Below, piece by piece: positions 9,825 to 21,967 of a stretch of DNA of 22,393 nt. Below the pieces are notes generated by a model, which saw only the letters and a list, made by a program, of their open reading frames with translations, searched no databases and was not told the origin of the DNA. The stretch covers positions 1-22,393 of IMG/VR virus record IMGVR_UViG_3300021964_000593. The stretch is one strand, 5' to 3'. The DNA is from a virus. Made by a program: the position numbers and the translations under genes. Every line of letters starts with the position of its first letter. Position 1 is the first letter of the stretch.

Positions 9825-10106
9825 TTATTTTGACCTACGTTCTGCAAACCCTTGTTTTGTATCTACTTTGTTATTACTTTCTGCCATAGACAAAGCTTCT
9901 TTCTCTGCCTCTATTCTACTTAGTATTTCAAATGCATCAAATATCGCAAGCTTCTTGGTGGCTGCTGCATTCTTAAGTCTATCTGCAGCCAAATCATCTT
10001 GAGGGTCTGGTTTTATAATATCCTCTTTAGCAACTTTAATTAACTGGTGAACAGCTCTTCTGGCTGCATCAATAATTTCTAATTTAATTTCCTTGTTTGA
10101 TTTCAT
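9825..10106 (-). CDS. Small helical protein before TerL, possible TerS
   Basis: This 93-aa protein is almost entirely helical and charged (EIIDAARRAVHQLIKVAKED, then AAATKKLAIFDAFEILSRIE). It ends four nt before the preferred TerL start and overlaps the 187-aa gene upstream as ATGA. Position and size would suit a small terminase subunit that recognises the packaging site, but I see no clear helix-turn-helix, and terminase small subunits are often longer. A short accessory packaging protein is the alternative. The coding call is firm; the function is a position-based guess. Confidence 0.78.
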   Translation of the reverse strand: MKSNKEIKLEIIDAARRAVHQLIKVAKEDIIKPDPQDDLAADRLKNAAATKKLAIFDAFEILSRIEAEKEALSMAESNNKVDTKQGFAERRSK

Positions 10107-10666
10107 AATATCATTGTTATTTGATGGTCAAACATTCTATATAATTTTTCTCCATCTACCTCAAACTCATATTCACTATCAGGCTTAAAAGATATTAAGT
10201 CTCCCTTATTAACGCCTTGCTTAATTAAGTTTTCATTAGGGTATTTAATTATCCCAACCAATGGCTCTTCCTTAGTGTTCTTAAATATAATAGATTCTTT
10301 TGTTTTTATTGGTTTAACATAACAATATCTGTCATGCGCACACCAATCTGTACCATTATGGTACATAAAGAACTGTTCGTTATCGACTAAAAACAAGTTG
10401 TCTTTCAGAAAACTTTTTCCGCTTTTTCTTCGCCCTTTAATATCATTGTAGAATTTAAAAACATTGTGATGAACAAGAAGAGTGTCACCTACCTTTATAG
10501 GTCCACAATAGTTTATAGGCAGTGCTTTTACTTCAGCATACCTGTTTGAGTATCTAGCATCTTCTTCAGATGAGCTAACAAGAAAATCTATCCCACCAAT
10601 ATTTTTTGTGTTGGAATATCTTTTGTTTTCTCTAGGTGTTACTATAAAGTCAGTTGGTGATTTCAA
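10103..10666 (-). CDS. GroES-like double-barrel protein, putative phage co-chaperonin
   Basis: This 187-aa protein looks like two GroES-type beta-barrels in tandem. In the second (about 125-187), VNKGDLISF and the closing strands YEFEVDGEKLYRMFDHQITM match the last strands of GroES. Its final 36 residues align without gaps to the end of this phage's own GroES (19957-20214), with 9 identities (N, K, G, D, I, Y, E, K and the final L) and many conservative changes. In the first (about 6-119), FIVTP, then NIGGIDFLVSSSEED and AEVKALP, then IKVGDTLLVHHNVF follow the GroES order of first strand, mobile loop with GG-I-x-L, and VGDIVIF. Residues 76-90 (GRRKSGKS) form an inserted basic loop. It overlaps both neighbours as ATGA and lies two genes before TerL. 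I infer a co-chaperonin or assembly factor; a shared fold without chaperonin binding is the main alternative. Confidence 0.6.
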   Translation of the reverse strand: MKSPTDFIVTPRENKRYSNTKNIGGIDFLVSSSEEDARYSNRYAEVKALPINYCGPIKVGDTLLVHHNVFKFYNDIKGRRKSGKSFLKDNLFLVDNEQFFMYHNGTDWCAHDRYCYVKPIKTKESIIFKNTKEEPLVGIIKYPNENLIKQGVNKGDLISFKPDSEYEFEVDGEKLYRMFDHQITMIL

Positions 10667-11272: not shown

Positions 11273-14200
11273 TTATTGATAAACTCTAATTTCTAATGAG
11301 CCATCGGTTAACTTATCGTCACTATTATGTGTTAGTATTTTTATTTCGTTATCATTTACTCTTCTCCACGCTATATCGTGATTGTTTTCTGCGCTACCAC
11401 CATTTACAAAAACAATTGTTTTACCTGAAGTAAATGGAGTTGAAGTTGATGTTAATGAATAATCTCCACCTGCGTTTCTACTCCACGTCAATACTCCTGC
11501 ATTTACTAATGAATTAGCTAAAACACTTGCTGTAGGAGCTGAAGTTCCTGTCTGAGATATCAAGGCTGTATAAGTATAAAAACTTGATGCTGTATCTTCA
11601 AAAACTCTTCCTGTTGCATCAACCTTTAAATTATAAGAAGTTGGGTCTGCTGGTAAAACAGTTCCGTTACCATACGCTCCAAGAGAAATGTGGCTTGTAT
11701 ATGCTTCAATTGCATTTAATCCTGTAACAGCACCTCCTGCACCTATTACTACCTTAGCAAGAGATGGTGCGTTGTACTGTCCTATTACAACCTGACCTTG
11801 TACGGAAGTTGTATCAGATAGCTGCCATCCAAAAGCAAATGTAGGACTCGAATCATTTAATGTAATATCTTTTCCTATTCCAATCCCATTAGCATTACTA
11901 ACAGTAATTCCTGTCCCTATTGCAATTGATGCGGCAGAATTAATATTATTGCCTGCTCCTAAAGCAATTCCTGTTGTTCCAATAATTTGATTAAGGCCTC
12001 CTGCAGTAAATCCTTGATTTCCTGAAACAGTATGATTTTGCCCAAAAGCAGATGCATTATTTCCGCTAACTGTGTTGTTATTCCCTGTAGCGAATGATTG
12101 CAATCCACTTGCGGTATTGCTTTGTCCGAATGATGCCGAATTAGCTGCAGTAGAGGAACTGCTAACCCCTATGGAGAATGCATTTGGTCCTGAACTTGTA
12201 GTTTGATTTCCAAGTGCTACAGCTCTTTCTGCGCTTGCGTTTGTAAGTTTTCCTCCTGCAAATGAATTTATTCCAGAGGCTATAGAGTTTTCTCCAAAAG
12301 TAAATGAGTTGTTTCCTCTAGCTTCAGTTGAAAATCCAAAGGCAGCTGATTGAGCCGCTGTGGAAATATTTGAAGAGCCTGCTGCAAATGCATTCTCGGC
12401 TAAAACCTCATGGTTTGCGCCTGTAGCAAAAGTGTTTTTATCTAGAACTTGGTTGCCTATTCCTGTAGCAAAAGCTCTTTCTCCTCCTGTTGCAATATTG
12501 TTTTCACCAAACAAAGCAGAATGGTCTGCTCCTGCGTTTACTGCGTTATTTTCACCTGCAACAAAAGATGTAGTAGCATTTATCTGGTTGGAAGTTCCAA
12601 AAATTGCAGAGTTTAATCCTGTGTAAATAGTGTTACCCCCTCCTCCAACTATTGAAGAATTTCCAGTTACAGTATTGTTATTACCAAAAGCTAATGAATT
12701 TGTTCTGTCAATAGTATTATTATTACCAAATACTGCGCTATGAACACCTGAAATAGTATTGGTTTTACCTGAAGCAAATGAGTAATCTCCTCCTGGAGAT
12801 ATTGTGTTTTGATATCCTGCTGCCACCGAACCATCTGCTCCTGCTGTAGATTGAAATCCTAAAGCTACAGAGTTTGGTGCGCTTGCTGTTCCATCGAATC
12901 CAAATTTTACAGCGTTGTTTGCGGTTGCTGTTCCACCAAATCCAGATACAAATGTATTCTTTCCTGAGGCCTCTCCTTTTTCACCAATAGCCACAGATGA
13001 TTGTCCTGATGCTATTGAGTCTTGACCGCTTGATATTGAGTAAGCTCCAGAAGCTAATGTCTTATTTCCAAAAGCAGCTGATGCTAAAGCCGAAGCTTCA
13101 GTTGAAAGTCCAAAGGCTGATGCACCTCCTCCACTCGCCAAGGTTAAGAAGTTTGCTGCCAAAGAGCCATTTCCAAATGCTGTTGTTGCAGCACCCATAG
13201 CAACGGCATTTGTTCCGTTAGCGTATGCCACTCCACCTAAATTAAAAGATGGGCCTCTGTTTCCTTGAGCGGTATCTCCTCCGTCTTGGGTAATAGAAAA
13301 TTTGTGATTCGCATATCCCTCGGTAAGCTGAAACAGTTTTGCATAAGTTCCACCTGTATTGGTTGCAGTTAAAGGGTCAATTCTAGCGTCAAAATTAAAT
13401 ATGCCATTTGGCATGTCTTGAATTAATTTTCTGCCTGTTAAACTATCAACAGTAGTTGTATCCCCTTTCCAAGTAGATAAAAAGTACCCTGCTGCTAAAC
13501 TATTATTTTGTCCGTTTAATGTAATTTGACTAGCTGTAGTTTCACCTGCTGCAGGCTCAAAGTTATCATTAGACTTTATGCTTGTTAAAGATAGTTGATT
13601 GCTTCCAATTATAATGTTTCCATTAACAGTAACCAAAGGATTGGTTATTGGGTCAGCATCTTGAGTAACTAAAGAGTCTCCCAATATCTGAGTTCCTACC
13701 CAAAGAGGTAAGGTGTTTATTGTTCCTGAACCTGTAATAACAGGGCTGTTATCTATCTTAGCCCAAAATACATTTCCTGCATCATCTTCTGAAATAATTG
13801 CCCAATCTTGAGGCTCCCAGTCAGTAATCCCACTTAAATCTGTTGTTCCTGCAACAGATACAACCCAATACTTTCCTGTATTTCCAGGAATAAGAGATAT
13901 GGCTTGTAGGTCAGGAGTGTTTGTATCTGCATCCCATGTTCCTTGAAACTCAAGTCCTGAGCCTTGGTAATTTTGCCAAGTAACATTTCCTGATGCATCT
14001 GAAACTAAAACTTGTTCATTATTTCCTACTTGGTTGTTAGCATCATATACAGGCCCTAAAAGTTTTATATCTCCTCCTAAAGTTGTAATTCCTGTAACTG
14101 TTAAGTTTCCTAGTAAACTACTATCTAAACCTACTGTTAGGTTTTGAGCTATACTTAAGCTACCAACACCGCTTCCGTTATCTAAATAAACTATTGTACC

Positions 14201-14491
14201 GCTTGGAGCTTGACATGCATCTTTTGCATTAGTGGTAGCAACATCTTGGTAAAACAAAGAATTAACCAGCTTAAAAGATTCCTGGCCAGCAGAACTGGCG
14301 GTAAATATAGGGATTCTGTAAGAACAGCCATCAAAAGCTTCATCTATAATAAAATTAGCAATATCCCCTAACGTAAAAGTTTTTGTCTGCTTTTCAATTG
14401 GTGTTGAATTTGCAGCAGTTCCAATTAAATAATCCCCAGACTCAATTGGTAACTGATTAGGGTATGATAAAGTATTACTAATTTTAGCCAT
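11273..14491 (-). CDS. Long tail fibre with YadA-head-like repeats
   Basis: This 1072-aa protein is the likely receptor-binding fibre. The first 50 residues (SGDYLIGTAANSTPIEKQTK, then FTLGDIANFI) look like a virion anchor. A beta-rich linker domain follows. From about residue 418 to 875 the chain is built of dozens of roughly 14-residue repeats with S/A at one site and G at the next (NSxAxGxxxxASG), for example SGQDSIASGQSSVAIG. This is the pattern of the left-handed beta-roll in YadA and trimeric autotransporter adhesin heads (Hep_Hag motifs), so a trimeric stalk is expected. The last 140 residues form a different globular tip (TYTALISQTGTSAP to LEIRVYQ). It has no signal peptide or membrane anchor, as expected for a virion protein rather than a true autotransporter. 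A coiled-coil protein precedes it and a small fibre-neighbour protein follows. Confidence 0.88.
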   Translation of the reverse strand: MAKISNTLSYPNQLPIESGDYLIGTAANSTPIEKQTKTFTLGDIANFIIDEAFDGCSYRIPIFTASSAGQESFKLVNSLFYQDVATTNAKDACQAPSGTIVYLDNGSGVGSLSIAQNLTVGLDSSLLGNLTVTGITTLGGDIKLLGPVYDANNQVGNNEQVLVSDASGNVTWQNYQGSGLEFQGTWDADTNTPDLQAISLIPGNTGKYWVVSVAGTTDLSGITDWEPQDWAIISEDDAGNVFWAKIDNSPVITGSGTINTLPLWVGTQILGDSLVTQDADPITNPLVTVNGNIIIGSNQLSLTSIKSNDNFEPAAGETTASQITLNGQNNSLAAGYFLSTWKGDTTTVDSLTGRKLIQDMPNGIFNFDARIDPLTATNTGGTYAKLFQLTEGYANHKFSITQDGGDTAQGNRGPSFNLGGVAYANGTNAVAMGAATTAFGNGSLAANFLTLASGGGASAFGLSTEASALASAAFGNKTLASGAYSISSGQDSIASGQSSVAIGEKGEASGKNTFVSGFGGTATANNAVKFGFDGTASAPNSVALGFQSTAGADGSVAAGYQNTISPGGDYSFASGKTNTISGVHSAVFGNNNTIDRTNSLAFGNNNTVTGNSSIVGGGGNTIYTGLNSAIFGTSNQINATTSFVAGENNAVNAGADHSALFGENNIATGGERAFATGIGNQVLDKNTFATGANHEVLAENAFAAGSSNISTAAQSAAFGFSTEARGNNSFTFGENSIASGINSFAGGKLTNASAERAVALGNQTTSSGPNAFSIGVSSSSTAANSASFGQSNTASGLQSFATGNNNTVSGNNASAFGQNHTVSGNQGFTAGGLNQIIGTTGIALGAGNNINSAASIAIGTGITVSNANGIGIGKDITLNDSSPTFAFGWQLSDTTSVQGQVVIGQYNAPSLAKVVIGAGGAVTGLNAIEAYTSHISLGAYGNGTVLPADPTSYNLKVDATGRVFEDTASSFYTYTALISQTGTSAPTASVLANSLVNAGVLTWSRNAGGDYSLTSTSTPFTSGKTIVFVNGGSAENNHDIAWRRVNDNEIKILTHNSDDKLTDGSLEIRVYQ
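11880..13240 (-). repeat. Degenerate repeat tract coding for the beta-roll of the fibre
   Basis: Within the fibre gene about 1.35 kb codes for repeated 14-15-residue units (about 42-45 nt each) with recurring words such as GNNNTVSGN, GxNSFA and ASGxxS. The copies have diverged at DNA level, so this is an old expansion rather than a fresh tandem duplication. Such tracts can gain or lose units by recombination and so change fibre length. Confidence 0.7.
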
Positions 14492-16339: not shown

Positions 16340-16555
16340 TTATTTTTTAATTGTAGCTGCTAAATGAGCGTGAACCTTTCCGTCCTTAATACACTTGTGC
16401 TCGTAGCTCATACTATGGTCACCACCATAAGCGTGGCCATAATCTTTTTTAGACATTGCCTTTGATTCGTCACGTCTGCTTTTTAAAGACTGAGGCTTCT
16501 TACCATGCTTTGCTCCTAATGACTCATCGAGTCTTGAATTATATCCTTGTTTCAT
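16340..16555 (-). CDS. Small basic His/Lys-rich protein, 71 aa
   Basis: This 71-aa protein is basic and rich in Lys, His and Ser (LGAKHGKKPQSLKSRRDESK, then YGHAYGGDHSMSYEHKC). It has no hydrophobic segment. It is the first gene after its own -7 box at 16578-16585 and begins a chain of coupled small genes leading to the lysis block. It is one of a cluster of lysine-rich small proteins here and could be a DNA- or virion-binding accessory protein. No known family is recognised with certainty. Confidence 0.7.
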   Translation of the reverse strand: MKQGYNSRLDESLGAKHGKKPQSLKSRRDESKAMSKKDYGHAYGGDHSMSYEHKCIKDGKVHAHLAATIKK

Positions 16556-16577
16556 TTTTATGTTTTTGTGTCTGGTA

Positions 16578-16585
16578 CAAAGATA
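16578..16585 (-). promoter_or_regulatory. Bacteroidota -7 box within the small-protein cluster
   Basis: The minus strand reads TATCTTTG, a perfect TAnnTTTG, 23 nt before the ATG at 16555 in the 30-nt gap between two small basic genes. It would give the lysis-side genes their own transcript. No -33 element is evident. Confidence 0.6.
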
Positions 16586-16876
16586 CTAATATTTTCCTTT
16601 ACGAGTTTTTGGGGAAGACTTTGTTGAACCGCCTTTCCCAGCCCATAAATTTTTACATGCCCAATAGCGTGCAGTTAGCTTTGATGTAGCTGTACTGCAC
16701 TTGTGGCGTGCTTTAAAACTTTTCCTAGCGGCTGCCGAATAATTGTGTCCATAACCTTTTGCGCCAAAGTGAATTAGCTTTTCTTTTCCACCCTCACATG
16801 CTTTTACCATACGCTTTTTCCCTGCCCTATCTGATGGACGAGGTTTGTTACAAGCCATTTTACTTTTATCTGCCAT
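16586..16876 (-). CDS. Cys/Lys-rich basic phage protein, 96 aa
   Basis: This 96-aa protein is strongly basic: 26 Lys/Arg against 4 Asp/Glu. It has four spaced cysteines (C9, C27, C60, C73). The middle, LIHFGAKGYGHNYSAAARKS, then FKARHKCSTATSKLTARYWA, belongs to a type I recall from marine phages, including cyanophages, and perhaps large viruses, always as a protein of unknown function. The four cysteines and the histidines could hold zinc. The charge suggests nucleic-acid binding, possibly packaging with virion DNA, but this is not shown. It lies one nt after the 110-aa membrane protein. Confidence 0.8.
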   Translation of the reverse strand: MADKSKMACNKPRPSDRAGKKRMVKACEGGKEKLIHFGAKGYGHNYSAAARKSFKARHKCSTATSKLTARYWACKNLWAGKGGSTKSSPKTRKGKY

Positions 16877-16877
16877 A

Positions 16878-17210
16878 TTATTCGTTTACACAAGCCTCTA
16901 GCTCTTTTACTTTTAATTTAAGCGCATCAACATCGCTGACAACTTTTTCTTGATATTTCTCTAAATATATTAATCTCATGTTTTGCTCCGCATCATCAGG
17001 TAAAGAGCCTAGTTCACCTCTTGGCCACTTTACTCTAAACTCAGAGTTCATTTCAAGCTCAGATTCCATTCTCATCAGATTTATATTCATCTGTTGAATT
17101 TCAGCAATCAACGTAAAATAAACCGCTGCTATCGACAATAATCCTGTGCAAATAGCAATTATGGTTTTAACATTTACGTTAAACTTTGTATCTTCACTAA
17201 GTTCTGCCAT
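16878..17210 (-). CDS. Membrane-anchored coiled-coil protein, possible spanin-like
   Basis: This 110-aa protein has one N-terminal TM segment (about 16-36, TIIAICTGLLSIAAVYFTLI) after a short acidic cytoplasmic tail. A helical outer part follows, and the C-terminal 35 residues form a coiled coil (YLEKYQEKVVSDVDALKLKV). The segment FRVKWPRGELGSLPDDAEQN is one I recall from similar proteins of marine phages. One TM followed by a periplasmic coiled coil is the layout of an inner-membrane spanin (Rz type), and the lysis genes lie about 1.2 kb downstream. I see no matching outer-membrane lipoprotein with a lipobox, so the spanin role stays a suggestion. A membrane tether for virion assembly is an alternative. 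Confidence 0.75.
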   Translation of the reverse strand: MAELSEDTKFNVNVKTIIAICTGLLSIAAVYFTLIAEIQQMNINLMRMESELEMNSEFRVKWPRGELGSLPDDAEQNMRLIYLEKYQEKVVSDVDALKLKVKELEACVNE

Positions 17211-17211
17211 G

Positions 17212-17454
17212 CTATGCGTTTCTTACTCTTGCCGCTGATGTATTAGCAACAAATTGTTTTCCTTTCTTCCCAGCCTGCTTTTTCTTTCTAGCTGTTGCGG
17301 CTAATTGTCTTTTTGATAAACTACGAGCTTTAGCCAATGGCAAACATCGGTCTGGATTCTTTTTATCCTTAGAAGTTCCGCATGGTCCTTTTATCTTACC
17401 ATCAGTTCCTATTCTAACCCATTTCTCGTCTCGCCATTTTTTAAGTTCGCCCAT
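17212..17454 (-). CDS. Lysine/arginine-rich basic phage protein, 80 aa
   Basis: This 80-aa protein has 24 Lys/Arg and 6 Asp/Glu. The N-terminal half carries the pattern KWVRIGTDGKIKGPCGTSK, then NPDRCLPLAKA. The C-terminal half is a basic tail (ARSLSKRQLAATARKKKQAG, then KKGKQ). I recall this arrangement, a short W-I-G...PCG...C.PLAKA domain followed by an A/K-rich tail, from phage and large-virus proteins of unknown function. Two cysteines might pair or bind metal. It ends one nt before the 110-aa gene. DNA binding is suggested by charge only. Confidence 0.78.
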   Translation of the reverse strand: MGELKKWRDEKWVRIGTDGKIKGPCGTSKDKKNPDRCLPLAKARSLSKRQLAATARKKKQAGKKGKQFVANTSAARVRNA

Positions 17455-19163: not shown

Positions 19164-19601
19164 ATGTCTATTCGAGGGTCTGACTACCTGAAATATTGGA
19201 GGGTTATTAGATATTTTATAAAAGCTAAGTACGGATTATCACAAGCCGATTTAGACATGCTGCTCTTTCTTTATTCTGAAGATTACTTCTCTAAAGATAA
19301 GTTCAGTGAGTTTGATGAACTACTATCGTGGGACGTTAATAGATTTGATAGACTACTTAGAGATGGATGGATTGAAGTATTTAGAAAAGGGACTAGAAAT
19401 AGAAAAGGAATATATCAGTTATCATACAAAACTGAAAGAGTTATAAGTGGAATATATAAAAAACTAGAGGGTAAAGAGATTCCTACCAGTACATCATTTA
19501 ACCCCATGTTCGCCAAGAACGTGTCATACACCGACAAGGTGTATCGAAATTTTATAATTCAAATTAACAAAGAGATTCGTGATGCAAAAAAAGAACTTTG
19601 A
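19164..19601 (+). CDS. Putative winged-helix DNA-binding protein, 145 aa
   Basis: This 145-aa plus-strand protein looks like a winged-helix regulator. After a basic helix (LKYWRVIRYFIKAKYGLSQA), residues about 25-60 (DLDMLLFLYSEDYFSKDKFS) and 53-66 (DVNRFDRLLRDGWI) fit the three helices, and EVFRKGTRNRKGIYQLSYKT (about 67-86) fits the beta-hairpin wing, in the order seen in MarR-like proteins. The C-terminus is basic and helical. It is divergent from the minus-strand small-protein genes over a shared promoter region with a palindrome, a typical setting for a regulator of that site. It overlaps the SET gene by 20 nt, so the two are made together. A virion role cannot be excluded. Confidence 0.75.
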   Translation: MSIRGSDYLKYWRVIRYFIKAKYGLSQADLDMLLFLYSEDYFSKDKFSEFDELLSWDVNRFDRLLRDGWIEVFRKGTRNRKGIYQLSYKTERVISGIYKKLEGKEIPTSTSFNPMFAKNVSYTDKVYRNFIIQINKEIRDAKKEL

Positions 19602-19962
19602 TATTCAATATGTTCTTGACAAACTAAATCTAACTCTAGAAGAATTAGATGCGCTATCAGACACTGGACCTGTCATAGATGTTAAATCATATCTTGCGGA
19701 GCGTAGAAAATCAAACATACATGGCTATGGAATGTTTGCTAAACGTAAAATTTTAAAAAATGCTTTTATTGGAATGGCCTCGATTGATAATACCTACAAA
19801 ACGTATCTAGGTAGATACACTAATCATTCAGCCAATCCGAATATAGCTTTTCTATATAATCAATCAAATGATTTATTAGTAAAGGCCCTACAAGACATAG
19901 AAGCAGGAGAAGAATTATTTTTAGACTATACATCACATTTTCTTAATCCACAGTATTTATAA
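19582..19962 (+). CDS. Minimal SET-domain protein, putative lysine methyltransferase
   Basis: This 126-aa protein has the SET-domain marks in order: IHGYGMFA (46-53), the cofactor-site motif NHSANPN (81-87), and GEELFLDY (109-116) with the final Tyr in place. SET enzymes move a methyl group from S-adenosylmethionine to protein lysine. The SET part is only about 85 residues. The stretch between the first strands and NHS is near 14 residues, so the usual I-SET insert is missing, and there is no pre-SET or post-SET zinc domain. It is close in total size to viral vSET (119 aa). I prefer ATG 19582 over GTG 19579. It overlaps the winged-helix gene by 20 nt and meets groES tail to tail with a 6-nt overlap. 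The substrate is unknown; host or phage chaperonin, polymerase and DNA-binding proteins are candidates. Loss of enzyme activity is possible. Confidence 0.75.
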   Translation: MQKKNFDIQYVLDKLNLTLEELDALSDTGPVIDVKSYLAERRKSNIHGYGMFAKRKILKNAFIGMASIDNTYKTYLGRYTNHSANPNIAFLYNQSNDLLVKALQDIEAGEELFLDYTSHFLNPQYL

Positions 19963-20214
19963 TACTACAACTACATCTCTTTCCTGAATTACAGTAAACT
20001 TTTCGTTTTCTATAAGCATTGTGTATCCTTGACGCTTGTCATAGTAGATAACATCGCCTTTGTTTATGACCTCAACATTAGTTCCTGGCTCAATCACCTT
20101 ACCTTTGCTGTATCTGAACTGAGACGTGTCTTCAGAAGATAACAATAATCCTGATGAGGTTTTAACCTCTTCATTAATTACTTCAATTAAAATATTTTTT
20201 CCTATTAACTTCAT
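19957..20214 (-). CDS. groES: Phage GroES co-chaperonin lacking the roof hairpin
   Basis: This 85-aa protein is the lid of the GroEL cage. The order fits GroES: first strand KLIGKNILIEVI, mobile loop (about 15-34) with the hydrophobic tripeptide L23-L24-L25 where E. coli has IVL, then SKGKVIEPG, NKGDVIYYD and a closing strand to DVVVVL. E. coli GroES has 97 residues. The missing part is mainly the roof hairpin between VLAVG and VKVGD, replaced here by a few residues. T4 gp31 also lacks this roof, which enlarges the cage for the capsid protein. The ATG overlaps the stop of the zinc-ribbon gene as ATGA, so it is translated with groEL. The order groEL then groES is the reverse of the normal bacterial operon. 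Confidence 0.88.
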   Translation of the reverse strand: MKLIGKNILIEVINEEVKTSSGLLLSSEDTSQFRYSKGKVIEPGTNVEVINKGDVIYYDKRQGYTMLIENEKFTVIQERDVVVVL

Positions 20215-20363
20215 AGTCTTGTATATATATAAACATCTTCTACATCACACTTATTGTTACTACAAGTGTAATTACCTACTATTCCATCTCCATCAACTCC
20301 ATAGTCTTCATAGCTATGGTCACCTCCCCAGATTAAATTTGAATTACAATTAGGACATTTCAT
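20211..20363 (-). CDS. 50-aa zinc-ribbon protein between groEL and groES
   Basis: This gene was found by translating the gap. It starts two nt after the groEL stop and overlaps groES as ATGA, so it is part of the operon. The product, MKCPNCNSNLIWGGDHSYED and on to NYTCSNNKCD, has four cysteines as C3-x2-C6 and C34-x4-C39, a zinc-ribbon layout with two knuckles about 27 residues apart. Between them lies an acidic, glycine-rich loop. Small zinc ribbons commonly bind nucleic acid or protein. A role as chaperonin adaptor or regulator is suggested only by position. The spacing and coupling make it very likely a real gene. Confidence 0.75.
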   Translation of the reverse strand: MKCPNCNSNLIWGGDHSYEDYGVDGDGIVGNYTCSNNKCDVEDVYIYTRL

Positions 20364-20365
20364 AT

Positions 20366-21967
20366 CTATTTAGTTTCGTATGAGCGTGCCATAGTTACAA
20401 TGGCATTAGTTGATAGTATCGTTGTTGCTACTGAAACAGCATTTTGTAAAGCTGTTCTTGTTACTTTAACTGGGTCAATAACCCCCATCTTTATTAAGTT
20501 ACCATATTGGGAATTTTTTAAATCATAACCCTCACCGACATGCGGAGGTCGTGGATAAATTTCGTCAAAGTCTTTTCCTGCATTATTTATAATCTGTCTT
20601 GCTGGTGCTTGTAATGCATACTTCATTATGTTAGCAGCAATCTTTTCATTGGCTGTGGGTGAGCAAGGCTCACATATTTCATAGGCCAACCCATACAGAG
20701 CCATGCCACCACCAGGAAGTATGCCCTCCTCTAGTGCGGAACGTACTGCACATACCGCATCGTCCACTCTGTCATATAGCTCTTTTTGTTCTAGGTCTGT
20801 GTTCCCACCTACATATATAACACCGATGCCACCAGTAAGCGAAGCTATCCTGGACATGATGAAATCTTTTTCCGTTTTTGTTTTTGCTAAATCATACGCA
20901 CCTTTTAATTCTGCCACTCTGCCGTCAACTGCGTCTTGGTTTACAGAATCATCTTTAAGGATGACTGTTGAGCCACGTCCAACTATCACCTTGGCTGCAT
21001 GGCCCAAGTCATCAGCACTTATAATGCTCAGGTCATCCCCAGTCTTTTCAGAAAAATAAGTAGCTCCTACTGTATATGCAATATCCTGCATCAACTCATG
21101 TTGCTTGTACCCAAAGTTCGGTGGTGCAATATTACATATCTTTAAATTGTTTTTCATCACATTGGCCGCCAATGTATTTATTACATTAACCGATGTAGGC
21201 GCAATGATAAGTAGTTTTTTGTTTTGTTGTATGATTGGCTTTAACACACCCTCAATCTGAAGTATGTTGCTTATCTCAGCATCAGACACCAGGATATGCA
21301 CATCTTCTAATATACACTCATCTTTCTTCTGGTCATTGATAAACAATGGAGATGAATATCCCCTGTCTACCTTTATACCCTTAGTGGTTTCATAATACGT
21401 CTCGCTGGTTTGTGATTTCTCTACAGTGACAACACCATCTTTACCAACCTCCTTATATACGTTAGCAATCGTAGTGCCCAACTCCTTGTCGTTGTTGGCT
21501 GAAATAATCGCAACATCTTTCATCTTTCGCAAAGATAATTTCTTGGAGTCTGATTTTAAATCCTCAATCACCTCTTTCGTAAGCTCATGCATGTGACGTA
21601 ATACATCTGTTCGATTAACATCTTCAGTAATCAACTCTGTACCTTTCTTTACTAACGCCTCTGTCAATACTATCGCAGTGGTCGTTCCGTCTCCAGCTGT
21701 AGTGGCCGTCTTGTCGGCAGCCTCTTTCATCATACGAACCGCAAGGTTCTCGACTGGGTCGATGAGGTTAATAGATTTAGCTACTGTAACTCCGTCTTTC
21801 GTAACAGTAATGCCTCCAATATGTTCCTGTGATTCTATAAGTACTGTGTTGCCCTGTGGGCCGAGTGTACTCTTAACTGCGTTTGATAATTTGGTGATTC
21901 CAGAGATTAACTTCTCTCTGCCGTCCTCACCGAAGCGTAGCTCCTTGGGAGAATATCCTTGATTCAT
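20366..21967 (-). CDS. groEL: Phage GroEL chaperonin
   Basis: This 533-aa protein is a full GroEL subunit. ATP-site marks are present: TLGPQGN (34-40), GDGTTT (92-97; D93 equals E. coli D87), GILPGGG (415-421) and D403 in RVDDAV, equal to the catalytic D398. Fourteen such subunits would fold proteins in a double ring. On the apical binding surface, several E. coli hydrophobic residues are changed: Y203 to L208, L234 to E239, and V263-V264 to A267-A268. The GGM-rich tail is absent and the chain ends MARSYETK. It is the first gene of an operon with a zinc-ribbon gene and groES, behind a -7 box 25 nt upstream. Codon use is AT-rich like its neighbours, though GC is somewhat higher. Gene residence in phage DNA is clear from the flanking virion genes on the same strand. 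Confidence 0.95.
   Translation of the reverse strand: MNQGYSPKELRFGEDGREKLISGITKLSNAVKSTLGPQGNTVLIESQEHIGGITVTKDGVTVAKSINLIDPVENLAVRMMKEAADKTATTAGDGTTTAIVLTEALVKKGTELITEDVNRTDVLRHMHELTKEVIEDLKSDSKKLSLRKMKDVAIISANNDKELGTTIANVYKEVGKDGVVTVEKSQTSETYYETTKGIKVDRGYSSPLFINDQKKDECILEDVHILVSDAEISNILQIEGVLKPIIQQNKKLLIIAPTSVNVINTLAANVMKNNLKICNIAPPNFGYKQHELMQDIAYTVGATYFSEKTGDDLSIISADDLGHAAKVIVGRGSTVILKDDSVNQDAVDGRVAELKGAYDLAKTKTEKDFIMSRIASLTGGIGVIYVGGNTDLEQKELYDRVDDAVCAVRSALEEGILPGGGMALYGLAYEICEPCSPTANEKIAANIMKYALQAPARQIINNAGKDFDEIYPRPPHVGEGYDLKNSQYGNLIKMGVIDPVKVTRTALQNAVSVATTILSTNAIVTMARSYETK

Follow-up and report, generated by a model that had tools for sequence, protein, structure and literature searches.

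A phage-encoded group I chaperonin with a switched apical groove, an altered GroES lid and an eroded ring interface

The apical groove of cellular GroEL is nearly invariant, since clients and lid have to be held by one and the same site, and charged substitutions at positions 234 and 237 of the E. coli protein block client and lid binding. Phages EL, OBP and AR9 also encode chaperonins, for which ring dissociation or single rings have been reported (PMC7185714; PMC5934643), but these are far more distant from GroEL than the protein that we describe here, and the EL chaperonin does not interact with E. coli GroES and has no known GroES of its own. GroEL homologs are already known in the genomes of marine Bacteroidetes phages (PMC5332604). 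Mitochondrial Hsp60 and Hsp10 likewise combine private lid specificity with single-ring forms (PMC3514286; PMC5575113), but Hsp60 has hydrophobic residues at two key groove positions, V at 234 and L at 264 (PMC3514286), where the phage GroEL has E and A.

We have analyzed a chaperonin locus of a marine phage, in a virus record 22,393 bases long (the whole of this stretch is referred to here as the window), the minus strand of which carries terminase, portal and a head module. At the end opposite the head module lies groEL (20366..21967, minus strand), encoding a group I chaperonin of 533 amino acids with a switched apical groove, no GGM tail and an eroded ring interface. Downstream come an ORF of 50 amino acids (20211..20363, minus strand) and then groES (19957..20214, minus strand; 85 amino acids; Pfam Cpn10, 43 bits). 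The adjoining groES would encode the putative lid partner, and its presence sets this locus apart from the EL/OBP type, a distant homolog without a GroES gene. The groEL product matches Pfam Cpn60_TCP1 (PF00118; 201 bits) and phrog_5725 'chaperonin groEL' (452 bits), and when its AlphaFold2 model (mean pLDDT 77) is submitted to Foldseek the top matches are E. coli GroEL crystals (E 1e-46, TM ~0.78). The three-domain fold and the full-length Cpn60 domain thus place it among the group I chaperonins, with 36% identity to E. coli GroEL and a mean of 38% to Bacteroidota GroELs; like these it has an adjoining GroES gene and a standard ATP site. The claim in the original prediction that the ATPase residues are kept holds, as alignment to E. 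coli GroEL shows T30, G32, P33, K51, D52, D87, T89-T91, S151, D398 and D495 all unchanged, and D52, D87, T89-T91, D398 and D495 are identical in all 74 of the phage relatives described below.

The closest annotated phage record is that of Podoviridae sp. ctfjg026 (MW202828.1), whose GroEL is 62% identical and which shares both the groEL-groES gene order and a tandem GroES near the terminase; it differs in that groEL and groES are only ~1 base apart, without the zinc-ribbon-like ORF. In the window that ORF (MKCPNC...CSNNKC in translation) has a stop codon that overlaps the groES start codon. Homologs lie between groEL and groES in the nearest relatives as well as in loci L007, L009 and L072, with a WGGDHSYEDYG motif in near relatives, and in other relatives there is an HNH-like ORF (L027, L030, L035), another small CxxC protein or no gap. 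The Flavobacterium phages elemo (Elemovirus), podoviruses of ~60 kb, also have a groEL-groES pair with a roofless lid and a second co-chaperonin gene adjoining the terminase, but their GroEL is 37% identical, retains L234 and carries Y263 and A264, and their lid loop is shorter. We note three further features of the window: a SET-domain protein of 127 amino acids (19579..19962, plus strand; Pfam SET, 49 bits) that is convergent with groES and overlaps its end by a few bases; a repeat-rich protein of 1072 amino acids (11273..14491, minus strand) with weak antifreeze beta-roll and YadA head repeat matches, which is probably a tail fiber or spike; and a cluster of small basic lysine-rich ORFs of 71, 96 and 80 amino acids (16340..17454, minus strand).

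We compared the apical groove in a MAFFT alignment that sets the phage GroEL and that of E. coli beside 74 distinct relatives from phages and 70 GroELs of likely hosts, nearly all of them from across the Bacteroidota (one, L088, from MAG TMED88, may belong to another phylum). Residues are numbered as in E. coli GroEL with Met as 1, a numbering that was checked, and the relatives were fetched by peptide patterns of the window protein, with positions 203, 234, 263 and 264 outside all patterns. Four groove substitutions had been proposed from the sequence, Y203L, L234E, V263A and V264A, and the alignment bears out all of them. They fall in a stretch of groEL (21164..21346, minus strand) that was also read directly, at the codons for L208 (E. 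coli Y203; 21344-21346), E239 (E. coli L234; 21251-21253), A267 (E. coli V263; 21167-21169) and A268 (E. coli V264; 21164-21166), all on the minus strand. The concern that such substitutions might be usual in Bacteroidota GroELs can be set aside: all 70 of the comparison sequences have Y, L, V and V at these positions and none carries the phage states, which host-like substitutions consequently do not explain. Within the phage family the states are close to fixed, with L in 67 members and M in seven at 203, E in all 74 at 234, A in 73 and S in one at 263, and A in all 74 at 264. The canonical residues at these four positions, which the phage protein lacks, are a usual feature of cellular GroEL and not a condition of belonging to the fold family. 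A literature search found no mutant data for L234E, L237E or V263S and no publication dealing with the groove in this phage GroEL family.

The list of changes put forward earlier was right in these four but incomplete, since it omitted the altered ring interface considered below and a set of hydrophobic gains in the groove. R231L is present in 74 of 74 family members, A241I in 73 and A258V in 72, while at the remaining groove sites the window GroEL retains Y199, S201, F204 and L237 and has I for L259. In addition, E238 is replaced by K in 73 of the 74; this K238 lies one helical turn from E234 and could pair with it. Given the hydrophobic gains and this potential pair, the groove looks re-registered, or shifted, instead of stripped.

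Could these changes be ordinary drift in an old, fast-evolving lineage, with little effect on clients or lid? Differences between hosts and phage are by no means confined to the groove: 70 sites spread over the whole of GroEL are fixed differently in the two groups. Among host-invariant sites, switches are 2-3 times commoner in the groove than elsewhere, but the excess does not reach significance for the nine classical groove sites (p 0.08-0.22), and for a wider set of groove sites it is borderline at best (p 0.06-0.24); the columns used to fetch relatives were included in some of these tests and left out of others. The change in the groove is better seen as one facet of a deep split between lineages than as an isolated event. 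The spread of the fixed differences, the lack of a significant excess in the groove and the different residues present at these sites in other phage lineages would be compatible with drift. Against it, the sites in question never vary in hosts and hardly vary in the phage family, and the acid that all 74 members have at a lid-contact site is not a conservative change. Moreover, dN/dS in close pairs is 0.05-0.12 for groEL as a whole, which rules out a decaying pseudogene, and 0.02-0.06 for groove codons, a very low value, so that the altered groove is maintained by strong purifying selection. We thus consider neutral divergence a rather improbable account of the groove.

The lid has changed as well. 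When 72 GroES sequences of the family are aligned with 32 from hosts, the family mobile loop (KT.SGL[LI]LS..[ED]D; SSGLLLSSED in the window) is two residues longer than its host counterpart (SG[IL].IPDTAKEKP), and in all 72 of the aligned family members both loop and roof are changed, the roof hairpin being absent. To view groove and lid together we grouped phage GroEL/GroES loci into 15 clusters at 55% identity. Two large clusters (115 and 23 members) with a canonical or near-canonical groove have canonical 21-residue loops and a roof. Altered grooves occur together with roofless lids in the window cluster (88 members), the L094 cluster (95 members; L234Q, V263A, V264M), L335 and elemo, and in a Cellulophaga pair groove and loop are altered while the roof region is nearly full. 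Across phage clusters, then, a canonical groove goes with a canonical lid and a switched groove with a changed mobile loop, usually on a roofless lid. In the tree, a branch with 97/92 support separates the phage-specific lineages (window, L094/L335, elemo and Cellulophaga), which have long stems, from host-like GroELs. Since they share one side of this branch, on long stems, the lid and groove changes may have few origins. Recent capture of the gene from a Bacteroidota host is unsupported, as the window lineage falls outside the host-like group. We note separately that the MAG Aliivibrio sp. Ust_30 (L083, L086, L091, L094-L097) contains many phage-type groEL genes, from at least two phage lineages and on separate contigs, which are probably viral contigs binned with the MAG.

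A private partnership between the phage GroEL and the phage GroES, as suggested in the original prediction, gains indirect support from the matching of groove and lid states across lineages, but groove-lid covariation inside the window family is at background level. A narrow substrate range, also suggested there, would mean a groove specialized for a single phage protein or a small number of them (capsid or tail proteins, for example), with lid compatibility secondary; this reading draws on the fact that Y203 and V264 directly contact non-native Rubisco (PMC10723157), on the fixation of the groove residues under selection, and on the GroEL paralogs of Myxococcus, in which apical and C-terminal differences, including those in the GGM tail, decide client choice (PMC3578752). 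GGM-type tails are also important for the function of E. coli GroEL (PMC11978752). The phage GroEL ends in MARSYETK, a few residues beyond E. coli position 524; a GGM tail is present in 64 of the 70 Bacteroidota GroELs and in none of the 74 distinct phage relatives. The absence of the tail is thus as had been claimed, but it is not special to this clade and fails as its distinguishing mark, since most other sampled phage GroELs lack one too. Specialization for few clients must further be reconciled with the hydrophobic bulk that is kept or gained in the groove at 199, 204, 231, 237, 241, 258 and 259, which could still allow general client binding, and with the alteration of lid-contact sites as well as client sites; IVL residues of GroES contact L234, L237 and V264 of GroEL (PMC3514286). 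A narrow client range therefore seems to us unlikely as the main explanation, and we favor a private lid over it.

A second surface of the phage GroEL has diverged in a different manner. The ring-interface sites that we considered (105, 109, 434, 452, 461, 463 and 464) include the four mutated to obtain single-ring GroEL (PMC5575113). Their entropy percentiles are 85-98 in the phage family and 34-68 in hosts, with one host site at 98 (p = 0.0004), and their mean charge is -2.2 in the phage family compared with +0.5 in hosts. dN/dS over the broader ring face is raised in most pairs. Because the alignment has gaps around 430-470, single sites there are less secure than 105 and 109, and R452 and D461 could still pair in the window GroEL. 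Judged from sequence, then, ring stacking in the phage GroEL is probably weak or absent, and from an interface that is eroded and often acidic we infer a particle that probably consists of one ring or of an easily separated pair. Phage GroELs with canonical grooves also show an eroded ring interface, so that this erosion appears to be a wider phage trend. We also note that the cluster of L183 (115 loci), with canonical lids and a near-canonical groove, has lost the conserved ring-interface residues and has a GGM tail in 26 of 75 distinct GroELs. Single-ring E. coli GroEL fails through over-tight GroES binding and works once that binding is weakened (PMC5575113). As a tight lid hampers a single ring, a weaker lid grip would suit one, and an altered lid grip and loose rings would thus form a coherent set.

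The window may encode a second lid. A gene in the head module, close to terminase and portal (10103..10666, minus strand), encodes a 'double-barrel' protein of 187 amino acids, a predicted tandem GroES with a full-length match to phrog_13932 ('co-chaperonin GroES'; 88 bits). Its model (mean pLDDT 75) is predicted to hold two GroES barrels in one chain and best fits 7ekq chain R (Foldseek E 2e-5; VIA Z 10.1 over 158 residues, next match 7.3). The 7ekq structure is that of the Chlamydomonas Clp protease bound to Cpn11/20/23 co-chaperonins, with chain R as one of the tandem GroES subunits. Such chloroplast (Cpn20-like) proteins likewise have two GroES barrels per chain, but their identity to the phage protein is 15-17%, with no match at the sequence level. 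In profile comparisons the second barrel resembles host GroES with 75% probability, compared with 2-4% for the first, and the first barrel also shows no significant similarity to phage GroES (3.8% probability). Proof of the first barrel as a GroES by sequence profile thus failed, leaving the predicted fold to speak for it, and it is plausible only that the protein partners the phage GroEL. If this protein were the main lid, or an adapter for head assembly, it might be what chiefly shaped the switched groove. Besides the fold match, one could cite the homologs that adjoin the terminase region, both in relatives and in Elemovirus (in the latter under the annotation co-chaperonin GroES), and the likeness, judged by eye, of LVSSSEED in the first barrel to the GroES loop LLLSSED. 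The profile result for the first barrel argues otherwise, as does the position of the gene among head genes ~10 kb from groEL, outside the chaperonin cluster, and we regard a dominant role for this protein as very unlikely. More speculatively, and with low confidence, the phage could encode a self-contained set in which a GroEL of one ring, its groove re-registered, has two lids, the small roofless GroES and the tandem GroES among the head genes; if so, one chamber would serve phage head proteins and exclude host GroES.

The reading that we prefer, to which we give a probability of roughly 0.55, is that this GroEL is an old phage-specific group I chaperonin with its own lid, a re-registered groove and probably weak or no ring stacking. 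The sequences themselves establish the residues, their conservation, the altered lid and the variable interface; lid binding, ring state and clients are inferred. In such a system groEL would encode an active chaperonin that folds phage proteins in a chamber powered by ATP, with the product of the neighboring downstream groES as its cap. The groove would still bind a hydrophobic lid loop in a shifted register, having lost bulk at 203, 263 and 264, exchanged L234 for an E able to pair with K238, and gained bulk at 231, 241 and 258, and the lid would have changed alongside it to the longer SGL[LI]LS loop without a roof hairpin. The particle would probably be a single ring or a readily separating pair, to which a weaker grip on the lid would be suited.

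Many natural phage sequences have replaced the groove, even to the point of placing an acid where the lid makes contact, and they keep the ATPase and have a different lid. They would provide a natural series in which to ask which groove residues serve client promiscuity and which serve lid specificity, and whether the loss of ring stacking accompanies weaker lid binding, questions approached so far mainly with engineered mutants.
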